In this document: positions 26,548-31,681 of the stretch, piece after piece
Numbering within the stretch: position 1 is the stretch's first letter
Layout: each line of letters opens with the position of its first letter
DNA from: Flavobacteriales bacterium
Lineage (GTDB): Bacteria; Bacteroidota; Bacteroidia; Flavobacteriales_D; Crocinitomicaceae
Assembly (NCBI GenBank): GCA_947449575.1
Contig: CANFRV010000026.1
Location: 1-45,273, forward strand
DNA: 45,273 nucleotides
Reading direction: 5' to 3'
The notes under the pieces: generated by a model
Seen by the model: only the letters and a program-made list of their open reading frames with translations
Told to the model about the DNA's origin: nothing
Database searches by the model: none
Translations under genes and position numbers: made by a program

Positions 26548-26578
26548 TTTGTCCTTTAAGAAAGTTTAACTATCTTTG
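26548..26578 (+). promoter_or_regulatory. Promoter of the atpBEFHAG operon
   Basis: TTTG (26548-26551), a 19-base spacer and TATCTTTG (26571-26578) match the Bacteroidota consensus exactly, about 40 bases before the atpB ATG. It lets the ATP synthase genes be expressed apart from sprE and bactofilin. Confidence 0.85.
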
Positions 26579-26618: not shown

Positions 26619-27701
26619 ATGCCTTTTAAAAACATAGTAAAATCAATCTTATTAATTTGTACAGTAGTATTAGCTTTCAATACATCTTTTGCAAATGGCG
26701 GTAAAGAAGAAGATAAAAGCGCATTCATCATGCACCACATTAAAGATGCTCATGAATGGCATATAATGGGAGAAACTTCTGTTTATCTTCCTGTTATTCT
26801 TTTTGACGGAGGAATGAAGGTTTTCTCTTCTAAAAGTTTATACGATGGAGAAGTTAAAACAGCTACAAATAAAGAAGGTGAAGTGCTCGATTTTGATTAC
26901 GTGGCAAATACTAAATTAGGATATGGTATGTTTCACGAAAAAATTTACAAGCTTAATAATGAAGGGAATTTAATTTTTCATGGGGAACATCCTGAAAATG
27001 CAAAGCCAATGGATTTTTCAATTACAAAAAATACACTATCTTTATTTTTCGGAGCAATTATAATTCTTATATTGACATTAACCGCAGCTAAATTTTACAA
27101 GAAAAATGGGGCAGTCGCGCCAAAAGGATTAGCTAAATTCATTGAGCCTTTAGTAGTGTTTGTTAGAGATGATGTTGCAAAACCTTATATTCATGGAGGA
27201 AAACATACTAAATATCTTCCGTATTTATTAACGATCTTCTTTTTTATTTTCATTAATAACTTATTAGGATTAGTGCCGATTCTACCTGGTGGAGCAAATC
27301 TAACAGGTAATATTAGTGTTACGTTGGTTTTGGCAGTGTTGACCTTATTGATTACGGTTATTTCAGGAAACAAAAATTATTGGGGACATATTTTTGCAAC
27401 ACCTGGTGTACCTAAAGCTTTGTTGATAATTATGGTACCAATTGAAATAGTTGGTGTTTTCACAAAACCTTTTGCTTTAATGATACGTTTGTTTGCTAAT
27501 ATGGCAGCTGGACATATTATTGTTTTAGCATTAATTTCAATTATTTTTGTGAACCAAAGTGCAGCATGGGGATTCTTATCAGTGCCAATGGCATTGTTTA
27601 TTTCTGTGTTGGAGTTGTTAGTTGCGTTTCTACAAGCGTATTTATTTGCGATGCTTTCAGCGTTGTTTATAGGTGCTGCTGTTGAAGAAGCGCATCATTA
27701 A
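26619..27701 (+). CDS. atpB: F0F1 ATP synthase subunit a
   Basis: Subunit a forms the proton half-channels next to the c-ring. The 360-residue protein has an N-terminal hydrophobic, signal-like segment (cleaved after FANG or nearby) and about 110 exported residues rich in His/Asp, an extension typical of Bacteroidota. Then follow the conserved helices. The essential Arg is in PFALMIRLFANM (Arg290), and NNLLGLVP is the usual helix 3-4 motif. It follows the best promoter of the window and precedes atpE by 26 bp. Start ATG lies immediately before the signal. Confidence 0.96.
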   Translation: MPFKNIVKSILLICTVVLAFNTSFANGGKEEDKSAFIMHHIKDAHEWHIMGETSVYLPVILFDGGMKVFSSKSLYDGEVKTATNKEGEVLDFDYVANTKLGYGMFHEKIYKLNNEGNLIFHGEHPENAKPMDFSITKNTLSLFFGAIIILILTLTAAKFYKKNGAVAPKGLAKFIEPLVVFVRDDVAKPYIHGGKHTKYLPYLLTIFFFIFINNLLGLVPILPGGANLTGNISVTLVLAVLTLLITVISGNKNYWGHIFATPGVPKALLIIMVPIEIVGVFTKPFALMIRLFANMAAGHIIVLALISIIFVNQSAAWGFLSVPMALFISVLELLVAFLQAYLFAMLSALFIGAAVEEAHH

Positions 27702-27727: not shown

Positions 27728-27940
27728 ATGATTTACGGAATATCCGCAATCGGAGCAGGACTTGCAGTTTTAGGTGCAGGTTTAGGAATTGGTAGAATCG
27801 GTGGTTCAGCAATGGACGCAATCGCTCGTAACCCAGAAGCTTCAGGTAAAATCACTTCTACAATGATTATTGCTGCTGCCTTAATTGAAGGTGTTGCATT
27901 ATTTGGAGTAGTAGTAGGTATGCTTGGTGCTGCTAAGTAA
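27728..27940 (+). CDS. atpE: F0F1 ATP synthase subunit c
   Basis: Subunit c builds the rotating ring in the membrane. The 70-residue hairpin has a Gly-rich first helix (GAGLAVLGAGLGIG), the polar loop ARNPE, and a second helix with the ion-binding Glu54 in AALIEGVALFG. The residue after Glu is Gly, and no Gln is seen at the helix-1 sodium position, so proton coupling is more likely than sodium. A terminator-like hairpin follows eight bases behind the stop codon (27948-27984). Confidence 0.97.
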   Translation: MIYGISAIGAGLAVLGAGLGIGRIGGSAMDAIARNPEASGKITSTMIIAAALIEGVALFGVVVGMLGAAK

Positions 27941-27947
27941 TTAAATT

Positions 27948-27984
27948 AATTTTGCTACAACGGTTGGTTGTAGCAAAATTTTTT
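27948..27984 (+). terminator. Terminator-like hairpin inside the atp operon, after atpE
   Basis: AATTTTGCTACAA (27948-27960) and TTGTAGCAAAATT (27968-27980) are perfect 13-bp complements around a seven-base loop, running into six T. By structure it is an intrinsic terminator, yet atpF begins 33 bases later in the same direction. Partial termination or 3'-end stabilisation here would raise atpB and atpE mRNA over the later genes, which fits the many copies of subunit c needed. Confidence 0.75.
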
Positions 27985-28017
27985 AAAAAGAATATTAATA
28001 TACACACTATATAAAAG

Positions 28018-28512
28018 ATGGATTTAATTACACCAGATTTGGGTTTAATGTTCTGGACAGGACTTGTATTCCTTTTGTTAATGTTTGTTCTTACAAAATT
28101 TGTTTGGAAACCAATATTAGCAGCTGTAAACAGTCGTGAACAAAGTATCACAGCTTCATTAGAGTTGGCTGAAAAGACAATGAGTGAAATGAAAGCGTTA
28201 CAAGCTCAGAATGAAGATTTATTGAAAGAAGCGCGTGCTGAAAGAGATTCTATCGTTAAAGATGCTAGAGAAATAGCTACAAAAATGGTAGATGATTCAA
28301 AAAACACGGCGAAAGTAGAAGCAGAAAAAATCATCAATTCTGCTCGTGAAGCAGTTAATAATGAAAAAACAGCTGCATTGGCGGAAATAAAAACTCAAAT
28401 TGCTATTCTTTCAATAGAAATCGCTGAAAAAGTGGTAAAAGGAGAATTATCTTCTGCTGATAAACAGAAAGCGTTATCAGAGAAACTTGCTGCTGATTTT
28501 AACTTGAATTAA
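28018..28512 (+). CDS. atpF: F0F1 ATP synthase subunit b
   Basis: Peripheral stalk subunit connecting F0 to F1. The 164-residue protein has one N-terminal membrane helix (about 8-26, GLMFWTGLVFLLLMFVLT) followed by KFVWKPILAAVNSRE and a long Ala/Glu/Lys-rich coiled coil to the C-terminus. Length is normal for b subunits. It is separated from atpH by eight bases. No b' paralogue is present. Confidence 0.95.
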   Translation: MDLITPDLGLMFWTGLVFLLLMFVLTKFVWKPILAAVNSREQSITASLELAEKTMSEMKALQAQNEDLLKEARAERDSIVKDAREIATKMVDDSKNTAKVEAEKIINSAREAVNNEKTAALAEIKTQIAILSIEIAEKVVKGELSSADKQKALSEKLAADFNLN

Positions 28513-28520
28513 TTAAGAAG

Positions 28521-29054
28521 ATGAAAGGATCGAAAGTAGCCGCGCGATACGCGACAGCACTCTTGGAATTGGCTATCGAGCAAAATAAAATTGAGCAAAT
28601 CTCTGGAGATATGAATTTTCTTTTGGAGACAAGCAATGAAACACGCGATTTTCAATTATTATTGGATAGCCCGATAATTAAAGGAGATAAAAAAATCGCT
28701 ATTTTCAATGAGCTTTTTGGTCAGTTTGAAGAAGTTTCCATGGCATTCGTGAAGTTGATTACTTCAAACGGGAGAGAAAGTTTTCTTCCTTCGATAGCAG
28801 AATCTTTCGATACGCAAGTAAAAGAATACAAAGGAATAATTCCTGTTACCATTTTATCAGCTGTAAAATTAGATGATTCAACAAAGAAAATCATTTTACA
28901 AAAAGTTGAAAACCATATTACAGGACAATTAGAAGTTACAGAATTGATCGATGAGTCACTAATTGGTGGTTTCATCGTTCGAATGGGAGATAAACAAATT
29001 GATGCTTCAGTCGCAAGCCAATTCAATGATTTAAAACAACGTTTAACAAGATAA
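28521..29054 (+). CDS. atpH: F0F1 ATP synthase subunit delta
   Basis: Delta links the b stalk to the top of the alpha3beta3 ring. The 177-residue protein shows the OSCP pattern: N-terminal helices starting SKVAARYATALLELA, a DSPIIKGDKK loop, and the C-terminal motif ELIDESLIGGFIVRMGDKQIDASV...QFNDLKQRL. Order and spacing (atpF-atpH-atpA) match the standard operon. A small hairpin lies in the 36-bp gap to atpA. Confidence 0.95.
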   Translation: MKGSKVAARYATALLELAIEQNKIEQISGDMNFLLETSNETRDFQLLLDSPIIKGDKKIAIFNELFGQFEEVSMAFVKLITSNGRESFLPSIAESFDTQVKEYKGIIPVTILSAVKLDDSTKKIILQKVENHITGQLEVTELIDESLIGGFIVRMGDKQIDASVASQFNDLKQRLTR

Positions 29055-29090: not shown

Positions 29091-30665
29091 ATGGCAGATG
29101 TAAAACCAGCAGAAGTTTCTGCAATTTTAAGAGAACAGTTATCAGGATTCAGATCTGAAACAGAACTTCAAGAAGTAGGTACCGTTCTTTCTATAGGAGA
29201 TGGTATTGCACGTATTTATGGACTTACAGGAGTTCAATACGGTGAGTTAATAGAATTCGACGGAGGATTGCAAGCGATTGCTTTGAATCTTGAAGAAGAT
29301 AATGTAGGAGCCGTGCTTCTAGGGCGTTCTGCTTTAGTAAAAGAAGGCGATACTGTAAAACGTTTACGTCGTATTGCTTCTGTAAAAGTAGGTGATGGAT
29401 TAGTTGGACGTGTTATTGATACATTAGGTAATCCAATTGATGGTAAAGGTCCAATTACGGGTGAATTGTTTGAAATGCCTATCGAGCGTAAAGCGCCAGG
29501 TGTTATCTTCCGTCAGCCAGTAACAGAACCTCTTCAAACAGGAATTAAGTCAATTGATGCAATGATACCAGTAGGACGTGGACAACGTGAGTTAATCATT
29601 GGTGACCGTCAAACAGGAAAAACGACTATTGCGATTGATACAATTATTAATCAAAGAGAATTTTACGACAGAGGTGAAACCGTTTTCTGTATTTATGTGG
29701 CTATTGGACAAAAAGGTTCAACGGTTGCGGGAATCGTGAAAAAATTAGAAGATGCAGGTGCAATGGCTTATACAGTTGTTGTTGCTGCAAATGCTTCTGA
29801 ACCGGCTGCAATGCAGTTTTATTCTCCAATGACAGGTGCTGCTGTTGGTGAATATTTTAGAGATATGGGTAAACCAGCGTTGATTGTATATGATGATTTA
29901 TCAAAACAAGCCGTTGCTTACCGTGAAGTATCTTTATTACTTCGTCGTCCTCCAGGTCGTGAGGCATATCCTGGTGATGTATTCTACTTACACTCTCGTT
30001 TATTAGAGCGTTCAGCTAAAATTATTAACAGTGATTCAATCGCTGCAAAAATGAATGACTTACCTGTTTCTTTGCAAGGAAAAGTAAAAGGGGGTGGTTC
30101 TTTAACAGCTCTTCCTATTATTGAAACGCAAGCAGGTGACGTTGCGGCATATATTCCAACCAACGTAATTTCTATTACAGATGGTCAGATTTTCTTAGAT
30201 TCAGATTTATTTAACTCTGGAATTCGTCCAGCTATTAACGTAGGTATTTCTGTATCGCGTGTTGGGGGTAATGCTCAGATTAAATCAATGAAAAAAGTGG
30301 CGGGTACATTGAAATTGGATCAAGCACAATTCCGTGAGTTAGAAGCTTTCGCGAAGTTTGGTTCAGATTTAGATGCAGCTACGAAATCAGTATTGGATAA
30401 AGGTGCTCGTAATGTTGAGATTTTGAAACAAAGAGAAGGAAATCCTTATCCAGTTGAAAAACAAATTGCCATCATCTATGTGGGTACAAAAGGATTGATC
30501 CAACGTGTTCCTGTTGCTAAAGTAAAAGAATTCGAAACAGAATTTTTAAATTACTTGGAAGCAAAACACAAAGATATCTTAGTTGCTTTAAAAGCAGGAA
30601 AGTACACAGATGAAATTACAGATACTTTGACAAAAGTAGCTAAAGAAATAGCAGATAAATATTGA
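29091..30665 (+). CDS. atpA: F0F1 ATP synthase subunit alpha
   Basis: Non-catalytic nucleotide-binding subunit of the F1 hexamer. The 524-residue chain has the N-terminal beta barrel with [13 protein letters not shown], the Walker A motif GDRQTGKT (171-178), [12 protein letters not shown] (Walker B region), and the alpha-specific [14 protein letters not shown] before the C-terminal helical domain. Length is normal and no residue of the motifs is lost. It is preceded by atpH and followed after 84 bp by atpG, that gap carrying two tandem hairpins. Confidence 0.98.
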
Positions 30666-30676
30666 TATTGATGTAA

Positions 30677-30734
30677 GGACAGGTAACGCCCTGTCCCAAC
30701 GTCATAATCTGTAAGGATAAGGTATATCTTATCC
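30677..30734 (+). other. Two tandem hairpins between atpA and atpG
   Basis: Stem 1: GGACAGG (30677-30683) with CCTGTCC (30690-30696). Stem 2: GGATAAG (30715-30721) with CTTATCC (30728-30734). Both are perfect 7-bp stems with six-base loops, and both share the flanks GTAAGGA on the left and TCCCAA on the right, with 18 bases between them. There is no T-run behind either one. The paired design suggests an RNA signal for mRNA processing or translation of atpG. Confidence 0.7.
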
Positions 30735-30749
30735 CAATAATATAAAAAA

Positions 30750-31625
30750 ATGGCAAATTTAAAAGAAATAAGAAATCGTATCGCTTCCGTTGGATCTACT
30801 ATGCAGATTATATCGGCTATGAAAATGGTTTCTGCTGCTAAATTGAAGAAAGCGCAAGATGCAATCACACAAATGAGACCTTATGCGATTAAGCTTCAAG
30901 ATATTTTGAGTAACTTAAGTTCTTCTTTAGATTTATCTGAAAATGCTTATTCTGAAAACAGGGAAATTAAAAATGTGTTGATTGTTGGTATTACTTCTAA
31001 CCGCGGTCTATGTGGTGGGTTTAATAATAATGTTATTAAGCAAGTGAACTTACTAATTAACAATGACTACAAAAAAGCGAACACGAAAGTACTTTGCTTA
31101 GGTAAGAAAATCAAAGACTCTTTTAAAAATTCAGATAGCTATTATATTAACTCTGAACTAGCTGAAGTTGAAGATATTTTTTCTAAATTGACATTTAGTA
31201 ATTCTGCAATTATCACTAATTCATTAATGAATACTTTCGTAGCTGGTGAATTTGATAAAATTATTGTTGTATACAATAGCTTTATAAATGCAGCTTCACA
31301 AGATGTGAAATCAGAACAATTTTTACCTATTCTTCCTCCTGTTTTAACAGGGTCAGAATCGATAGGAGATTATATTTTTGAACCTTCGAAAGAAGAAATA
31401 GTTGCTGATCTAATACCAAAATCTTTAAAAATACAATTCTTTAAAGGCTTATTAGATTCAAATGCTTCTGAACATGGCGCTCGTATGACAGCAATGCATA
31501 AAGCTACTGACAACGCGAAAGAAATGAAAAAATCATTAACTATTGGTTACAATAAAGCTCGTCAAGCAGCAATTACTAGTGAAATATTAGAAATTGTTGG
31601 TGGTGCTGAAGCATTGAAAAACTAG
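30750..31625 (+). CDS. atpG: F0F1 ATP synthase subunit gamma
   Basis: Central rotor shaft of F1. The 291-residue chain starts with the signature NLKEIRNRIASVGSTMQI.TSAMKMV-type helix (here with IISAMKMVSAAKLKKAQ), has ITSNRGLCGGFNNN in the globular part, and ends with EHGARMTAMHKATDNA followed by YNKARQAAITSEILEIVGGAEAL. It is the last ATP synthase gene before a strong terminator. atpD (beta) and atpC (epsilon) are not here; in Bacteroidota they commonly sit as a separate pair. Confidence 0.97.
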   Translation: MANLKEIRNRIASVGSTMQIISAMKMVSAAKLKKAQDAITQMRPYAIKLQDILSNLSSSLDLSENAYSENREIKNVLIVGITSNRGLCGGFNNNVIKQVNLLINNDYKKANTKVLCLGKKIKDSFKNSDSYYINSELAEVEDIFSKLTFSNSAIITNSLMNTFVAGEFDKIIVVYNSFINAASQDVKSEQFLPILPPVLTGSESIGDYIFEPSKEEIVADLIPKSLKIQFFKGLLDSNASEHGARMTAMHKATDNAKEMKKSLTIGYNKARQAAITSEILEIVGGAEALKN

Positions 31626-31646: not shown

Positions 31647-31681
31647 AAATCCCTTTGTATTAGATAAAGGGATTTTTTTTT
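31647..31681 (+). terminator. Rho-independent terminator of the atp operon
   Basis: AAATCCCTTT (31647-31656) and AAAGGGATTT (31666-31675) pair perfectly around a nine-base loop, then nine T run to 31681. The next gene starts only nine bases later, so its promoter must overlap this structure or it depends on readthrough. Confidence 0.9.

Follow-up and report, generated by a model that had tools for sequence, protein, structure and literature searches.

The window (the whole 45,273-nucleotide stretch of DNA analysed here, which is one whole contig) carries an ATP synthase unit with the gene order atpB-atpE-atpF-atpH-atpA-atpG and, in the gap between atpE and atpF, an RNA hairpin (Table 1). All six genes lie on the + strand, in line with the statement of an earlier note on this DNA that atpF, H, A and G follow atpE in the same direction, and each of their proteins scores above one or more of the curated NCBIfam cut-offs. 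The host genome (3.5 Mb) has one atpE match. Among 80 named loci (the best 80 of at least 451), the gene order is complete in 65 and partial in the other 15.

The earlier note also held that no clear promoter separates atpE from the genes that follow, and this stands: between atpE and atpF there is no exact match to TTTG-N17-21-TANNTTTG, which we take to be the Bacteroidota-type promoter consensus, and a sigma-70-type scan of the + strand reports nothing there. The slightly wider pattern TTTG-N17-22-TANNTTTG is present in one of 215 atpE-atpF gaps. In the window as a whole, promoter-type matches are as frequent as chance would have them (three found, 3.6 expected); the nearest one upstream of the hairpin lies ahead of atpB and is likely to be the start of the atp unit.

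Table 1. Features of the atp unit and of the atpE-atpF hairpin in the window
Feature	Coordinates	Strand	Basis or remark
Candidate operon promoter, TTTG-N19-TATCTTTG, 40 nt upstream of atpB	26548..26578	+	By position; count not above chance
atpB, F0 subunit a, upstream of atpE in the same unit	26619..27701	+	NCBIfam
atpE, F0 subunit c, 70 aa	27728..27940	+	ORF; TIGR01260, 47 bits against a cut-off of 43.95
atpE-atpF gap, containing the hairpin	27941..28017	+	77 nt
Hairpin 5' arm, AATTTTGCTACAAC	27948..27961	+	14 nt; folding and covarying stem
Pentaloop GGTTG (consensus GRUUG), nearly invariant	27962..27966	+	Alignment of relatives
Hairpin 3' arm, GTTGTAGCAAAATT	27967..27980	+	14 nt; folding and covarying stem
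T6, short U-tract	27979..27984	+	Two T inside the stem; T-rich tract conserved at a like distance from the loop
atpF, F0 subunit b, first gene past the hairpin	28018..28512	+	NCBIfam
atpH, subunit delta	28521..29054	+	NCBIfam
atpA, subunit alpha	29091..30665	+	NCBIfam
atpG, subunit gamma, last gene of the unit	30750..31625	+	NCBIfam
Terminator-like hairpin at the operon end, 3' of atpG (internal comparison)	31647..31675	+	d-score +13.6

The hairpin in the window

The hairpin spans 27948–27980 (+) and has a 14-bp stem and a 5-nt loop. It is the single main structure of the gap in minimum-energy and centroid folds alike, with a minimum free energy of -19 kcal/mol. A 71-nt stretch around it gives a z-score of -5.1 and the whole 77-nt gap one of -6.2, and in neither case did any of 200 dinucleotide shuffles fold as well. 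The earlier note had described a 13-bp hairpin immediately after atpE followed by six T. The observation of a hairpin at 27948 is confirmed, with the corrections that the stem has 14 bp and begins 7 nt downstream of the atpE stop codon (27938–27940); the six T are there too, two of them paired within the stem. No Rfam 15 family matches the window above its gathering cut-off, and at E ≤ 5 the region 27850–28100 returns just two microRNA models, far under the cut-off.

Conservation among relatives

Three samples of loci were compared: 75 atpE-atpF gaps from the host family (L001–L035 and L066–L105), the 80 named loci and 60 loci from other families of the phylum (L036–L065, L186–L205 and L266–L286 do not enter the locus counts). 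The named set, taken as the best 80 from a pool of at least 451, is biased towards similar atpE genes, and some of its contigs duplicate host-family loci; its members with atpE most like the host's are Fluviicola and bins labelled Flavobacteriales, Cryomorphaceae or Crocinitomicaceae, along with a few ill-fitting titles, and the host would accordingly belong near Fluviicola. The class and order of other genomes were assigned from similar named atpE loci.

That a hairpin might also be found after atpE in relatives, as the earlier note suggested checking, is strongly borne out. A strict script finds the GRUUG hairpin in 70 of the 75 host-family gaps; two of the five misses (L080, L088) do carry ACGGTTGGT in a hairpin and the other three have the pentaloops AAATA, GATAG and GGATT. 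The script passes 18 of 35 loci from families of the same order or class (f2–f21) and none of 25 from families of the same phylum only (f22 and beyond). Of the named loci (best 80 of at least 451), 54 pass; among the 26 that do not, four show the GRUUG loop in a hairpin (L119, L138, L140, L152), 12 carry Cytophagales titles (Hymenobacter, Pontibacter, Adhaeribacter and others), four bear titles that do not belong to Bacteroidota and the remaining six are other Bacteroidota or unassigned by title. At least three loci with a GRUUG hairpin (L088, L119, L138) were scored as misses because a later stop codon was taken. Many Cytophagales and a Bacteroides locus possess a strong hairpin with another loop (GTTAG, ATTAG, GCATG, CCTGC).

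Where the hairpin occurs its placing is fairly constant: across 138 loci, which include a few with a later stop, the median distance from stop codon to loop is 23 nt (IQR 20–28), that from loop end to the next ATG is 50 nt (IQR 46–53) and the median gap length is 79 nt. The GRUUG hairpin is missing from four of five loci in family f9 and from both loci in f8, one of which carries a different hairpin; in all of these atpF still follows atpE. The f8 and f9 loci L212, L213, L218, L222, L223 and L225, which lack the loop or the whole hairpin, form a natural comparison set for a partner of the loop.

Selection as RNA

Covariation was measured over 14 pairs in 92 anchored hairpins, chosen partly by pairing from 110 references; the 18 omitted are near-duplicates, hairpins with odd loops and some with poorer stems. 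Over 12 positions pairing is 93.7% in all 110, 94.9% in the 92 and 87.5% in the 18. In the 92 hairpins, 92.5% of cells are paired, compared with 54.5% after shuffling and 34–46% when slid; double-changed cells number 513 (shuffled, 144) and the covariation score is 0.98 (shuffled, 0.23). None of 500 shuffles reached any of these three values. Two other measures say less: all 14 pairs show a double change, which 211 of 500 shuffles match and which is thus no evidence, and 58 further pair types are seen, a weak measure matched by four of 500 shuffles.

Because the 92 hairpins had been selected partly on pairing, a further set was picked by the string CGRTTGG alone, which occurs in 111 of 155 loci (96 non-redundant). 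In these 96, positions 4–12 are paired in 88–98% of loci with five or six pair types each, and positions 1–3 are nearly constant (C-G, then A-U or G-C, then mostly A-U). Mismatches at positions 4–12 are G-U in 60 cases and A-C in 13 (p 2.3e-8), with 67 others, and this excess points to RNA of the atp-sense (+) strand as the functional molecule, excluding a DNA-level palindrome or an antisense RNA.

One caller reads the loop itself as GGTTG or GATTG at 123 of the 155 loci, and in the window's hairpin it is closed by C27961-G27967, which like the next two pairs varies little among relatives. Taken together, these comparisons show a genuine hairpin under selection as RNA, with the pentaloop and its closing pairs as its most conserved part and a stem that drifts freely with compensation.

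Specificity for atpE

A covariance model built from the 92-hairpin alignment was used to search further genomes, with search filters that drop weak matches. In the host genome its one match at E ≤ 0.5 is the atpE hairpin. Across 60 genomes of the order there are 46 such places, 38 of which (in 37 genomes) adjoin atpE; 23 of the 60 genomes give no atpE-side match with this model. The eight places away from atpE comprise a terminator-like hairpin after a long ORF (L266), an intergenic hairpin with an E-value of 0.45 (L274) and six that lie in ORFs or lack a comparable fold.

In 198 genomes of the phylum, at least 22 of 32 places at E ≤ 0.05 adjoin atpE. All 22 come from the host's class, represented by 49 genomes; the 149 genomes outside it have none at the atpE places among the matches listed and, judged against the same places, 27 of the 49 class genomes have nothing at atpE. 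The model evidently undercounts, since the gaps of G335, G354, G385 and G393 hold a GRUUG hairpin though unmatched. Five of the ten phylum places away from atpE were read: two are terminator-like (L277, L278), one is without clear context (L279) and two (L275, L276) are described below. The remaining five (G297, G272, G337 twice and G325) are defined simply as lying off the atpE places among the matches listed. L275 and L276, from two sister genomes that do not belong to the host's class, are hairpins just 3' of a tRNA-Pro gene; they share the CGGTTGG loop apparently by chance.

We considered whether the motif might be shared by a regulon and rejected this. Exact copies of AACGGTTGGTT occur 73 times in 20 genomes, compared with 77 for the reversed control, and among 30 copies fetched, those lying away from atpE form nothing like this hairpin; what comes closest is an AT-rich palindrome of -11.9 kcal/mol (L061) and a partial one of -11.4 (L063).

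Within the atp unit of the named loci (best 80 of at least 451), strong hairpins follow atpB in 0 of 77 cases, atpE in 58 of 79, atpF in 2 of 76, atpH in 0 of 75, atpA in 31 of 70 and atpG, at the operon end, in 51 of 67, counts for which 120 nt were searched after atpG and 85–90 nt after the other genes. None of the 51 operon-end hairpins in these same loci (best 80 of at least 451) has a GRUUG loop. Many of the hairpins in the atpA-atpG gap are long AT-rich palindromes of short repeats such as AAGTATCAAGTATC, with no common loop, and are possibly repeat-derived (examples are L127–L134, L160, L161 and L179–L182). The window's own atpA-atpG gap (30666–30749) contains two small palindromes, as judged by eye.

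Terminator character

Terminator character was gauged with an implementation of the d'Aubenton-Carafa score, the best-scoring stem length being chosen in the same way for all genes. T is enriched at positions 14–17 after the loop (0.60–0.70, a few later-stop rows included). At positions 15–18 it keeps a frequency of 0.63–0.76 even when C or T stands opposite, so that the T-tract is conserved independently of pairing. The tract is short, with a longest T run of 3–6 in 115 of 139 loci. In the 8 nt that follow the outermost G-C pair, the mean number of T is 5.2 for atpE, 6.4 for atpG and 3.6 for atpA (named loci, best 80 of at least 451).

Scored over the stretches given above (120 nt after atpG, 85–90 nt after the other genes), the atpE hairpins lie at the border, with a median of -3.6 and 26 of 62 above zero. 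Those at the operon end after atpG are clear terminators (median +19.2, 47 of 51 above zero) and those after atpA are not terminators (median -33.7, 1 of 33 above zero). In the window the + strand scores are +3.1 after atpE and +13.6 after atpG, and a terminator scan reports the 27948–27984 site on the - strand only; the earlier note's description of a full intrinsic terminator was thus too strong.

By clade, with 125 nt searched after both atpE and atpG and a few later-stop rows included, named Flavobacteriales have an atpE median of +5.8, with 19 of 30 above zero; the medians are -8.2 for the Bacteroidales group, -9.3 for Sphingobacteriales and -17.2 for Cytophagales, the clades being assigned from record titles of which some, for metagenome bins, are unreliable. 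The host-family set of 75 loci has a median of -6.4, with 23 of 72 hairpins above zero. Since the scores differ in this way, termination cannot be the shared function everywhere: on this evidence it is the hairpin that is shared, and the predicted leaky-terminator character varies by lineage.

Proposed function and alternatives

From the comparative evidence we infer partial termination, protection from decay, an effect on stoichiometry and a partner for the loop. The reading we prefer, with a probability of roughly 0.6, is that the hairpin acts as a leaky terminator and mRNA-decay barrier that yields more atpE than downstream message, with a putative partner at its loop. On this reading it is a cis-acting RNA element bordering the atpE message on its 3' side, and it is widespread in the host's class, taken to be Bacteroidia. 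A fraction of RNA polymerases would be stopped at the short U-tract, most clearly in the named Flavobacteriales, and 3'-to-5' exonucleases would be blocked on the shortened messages, the latter being the part that may be common to lineages with a poor U-tract. The net effect would be more atpE (or atpB-atpE) mRNA than atpF-atpH-atpA-atpG mRNA.

Each complex takes some ten or more copies of subunit c and one to three of each of a, b, delta, alpha and gamma, subunit a being needed just once. An mRNA-level stoichiometry device would fit these needs because the hairpin follows atpE, is nearly absent after atpB, atpF and atpH and lies near the terminator border. Counting against such a device is the finding that the gene for subunit alpha, needed in three copies, also precedes strong hairpins (31 of 70; named loci, best 80 of at least 451). 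We discarded the atpA hairpins as a second stoichiometry element, many of them being repeat-like AT palindromes without a shared loop. A 3' hairpin would moreover raise atpB along with atpE, and as subunit a is needed once the hairpin cannot by itself account for the c:a ratio, which would in addition need translation or cleavage between atpB and atpE. The earlier note's "partial termination or 3'-end protection" was therefore a sensible class of explanation and is partly supported: the conserved hairpin and the border-level terminator features speak for it, and the fixed pentaloop and the predicted rise in atpB go beyond it or tell against it.

Neither termination nor protection from exonucleases needs a fixed loop, and it is for this reason that a loop-reading partner is proposed; a trans-acting protein or RNA probably reads GRUUG and the closing pairs and would thereby adjust output. 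The loop core R-U-U-G-G resembles the D-loop of tRNA, so that an enzyme that reads D-loops, or some tRNA-like recognition, might be involved. Pairing of the loop with nearby sequence was sought by eye within the gap and dismissed. An RRM protein was likewise set aside as the partner, the passages drawn on from the papers on RbpB (PMC11697453) and RbpPg1 (PMC12119571) giving no matching motif. We put forward only tentatively, as something that may well prove wrong, the proposal that a GRUUG-reading trans-acting partner sets the level of subunit c in Bacteroidia in place of the E. coli enhancer, the hairpin being then a dedicated c-ring RNA element.

Were read-through complete, the hairpin could simply guard the 3' end of atpE after cleavage downstream, with the U-tract unused. 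Hairpins of this kind, without a U-tract, are described for E. coli in passages of Dar and Sorek (2018; PMC5927463), and the scores in named Cytophagales and Sphingobacteriales are mostly negative, as are those of the host family, where 23 of 72 are above zero. A pure decay barrier does not, however, account for a T-rich tract conserved at positions 15–18 apart from pairing, nor for the scores of named Flavobacteriales, which come close to the terminator border or pass it (above zero in 19 of 30), and we consider it rather unlikely. At the other extreme, atpE might end in a true terminator with atpF-atpG served by a promoter of their own. The window copy does score slightly above zero (+3.1), but with a promoter motif in one of 215 gaps, gaps of just 79 nt (median, 138 loci) and the whole gene order present in 65 of the named loci (best 80 of at least 451) and part of it in the other 15, this can be given almost no credence.

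The fixed loop raises a different possibility, namely that a GRUUG-binding protein or RNA gates transcription or translation into atpF-atpG, so that output follows a signal. Such a switch would explain why the loop and closing pairs are far more conserved than the drifting stem, and why the strongest covariance-model matches are linked to atpE, as befits a specific site. Yet neither a partner nor an alternative fold nor an anti-terminator came to light, and folding the gap gives one main hairpin; RbpB of Bacteroides, moreover, prefers single-stranded regions, with neither atpE nor ATP synthase appearing in the main text of its description (PMC11697453); a switch seems to us improbable. More remote still is a purely translational role, in which the hairpin keeps post-termination ribosomes off the atpF start or shields termination at atpE. 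The fairly constant spacing to both genes (median 23 nt from stop to loop, 50 nt from loop to ATG) would suit such an insulator, but strong hairpins after atpB, atpF and atpH number just 2 in 228 (named loci, best 80 of at least 451), and the T-tract and fixed loop would be left unexplained.

Relation to known systems

In E. coli a translation-enhancing leader lies ahead of atpE and meets the same need as that proposed here, for more subunit c than its operon neighbours; it is upstream and acts on translation, whereas the present element is downstream of the gene. Bacteria of the host's class rely little on Shine-Dalgarno sequences. For the earlier note's statement that Bacteroidota lack the E. 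coli enhancer, the analysis covered base composition: the atpE leaders of 178 loci are A/T-rich, A standing at 0.60–0.75 between -13 and -11, and position -3 is A or G. They resemble the A-rich start regions of these bacteria; T-rich stretches are seen farther upstream.

The boxB element of lambda-type phages is a pentaloop hairpin read by a protein. The atpE element is like it in being a short hairpin with a fixed 5-nt loop, a freely changing stem and a terminator-like site nearby, and differs in the sequence of the loop and in that its partner is putative. With intrinsic terminators, including leaky ones within operons, it shares a stable GC-containing stem-loop on the sense strand followed by a T-rich tract; set against these are the shortness of the tract, the border score and the genes continuing in the same direction. 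Its fixed loop also distinguishes it from the operon-end hairpins after atpG, the loops of which vary (29 of 51 have 4 nt).

There is also a likeness to intercistronic stem-loops that set stoichiometry within an operon through differential mRNA decay, such as puf of Rhodobacter, malEFG and the E. coli set of PMC5927463. In that set, 26 of 34 gene pairs in which the upstream gene is the more stable carry a stable hairpin where the stabilised part ends on its 3' side. In each case a stable hairpin separates a many-copy gene from few-copy genes on one transcript, and the same placing between high-need and low-need genes is found here (58 of 79 after atpE, compared with 2 of 228 after atpB, atpF and atpH; named loci, best 80 of at least 451). 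The atpE hairpin differs in keeping to a single site throughout much of a bacterial class, in its fixed pentaloop and in its short T-tract, and its effect on decay is a prediction. The lack of a U-tract that marks the E. coli set is not seen overall (positions 15–18 are T-rich), tail scores being low in Cytophagales. The hairpin may act like an intercistronic stoichiometry hairpin and is a putative member of that kind.

Among the open-licence papers listed, no title or abstract shown describes a hairpin after atpE in Bacteroidota. Two structured-RNA surveys (PMC8040213, PMC2864571) mention neither atpE nor ATP synthase in their main text, and a supplementary listing under an anonymous label is possible.

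Significance

What was a single suspicious hairpin appears from these comparisons as a conserved RNA motif over much of the sampled class, with a fixed loop. How about ten c subunits are obtained from an operon with one gene copy per subunit is a classic question, answered mainly in E. coli and there through translation. One conserved site after atpE would offer a direct and testable answer to c-ring supply for a large bacterial class. A partner for the loop, if real, would add a new RNA-binding specificity to a group that is said to have neither Hfq nor CsrA.
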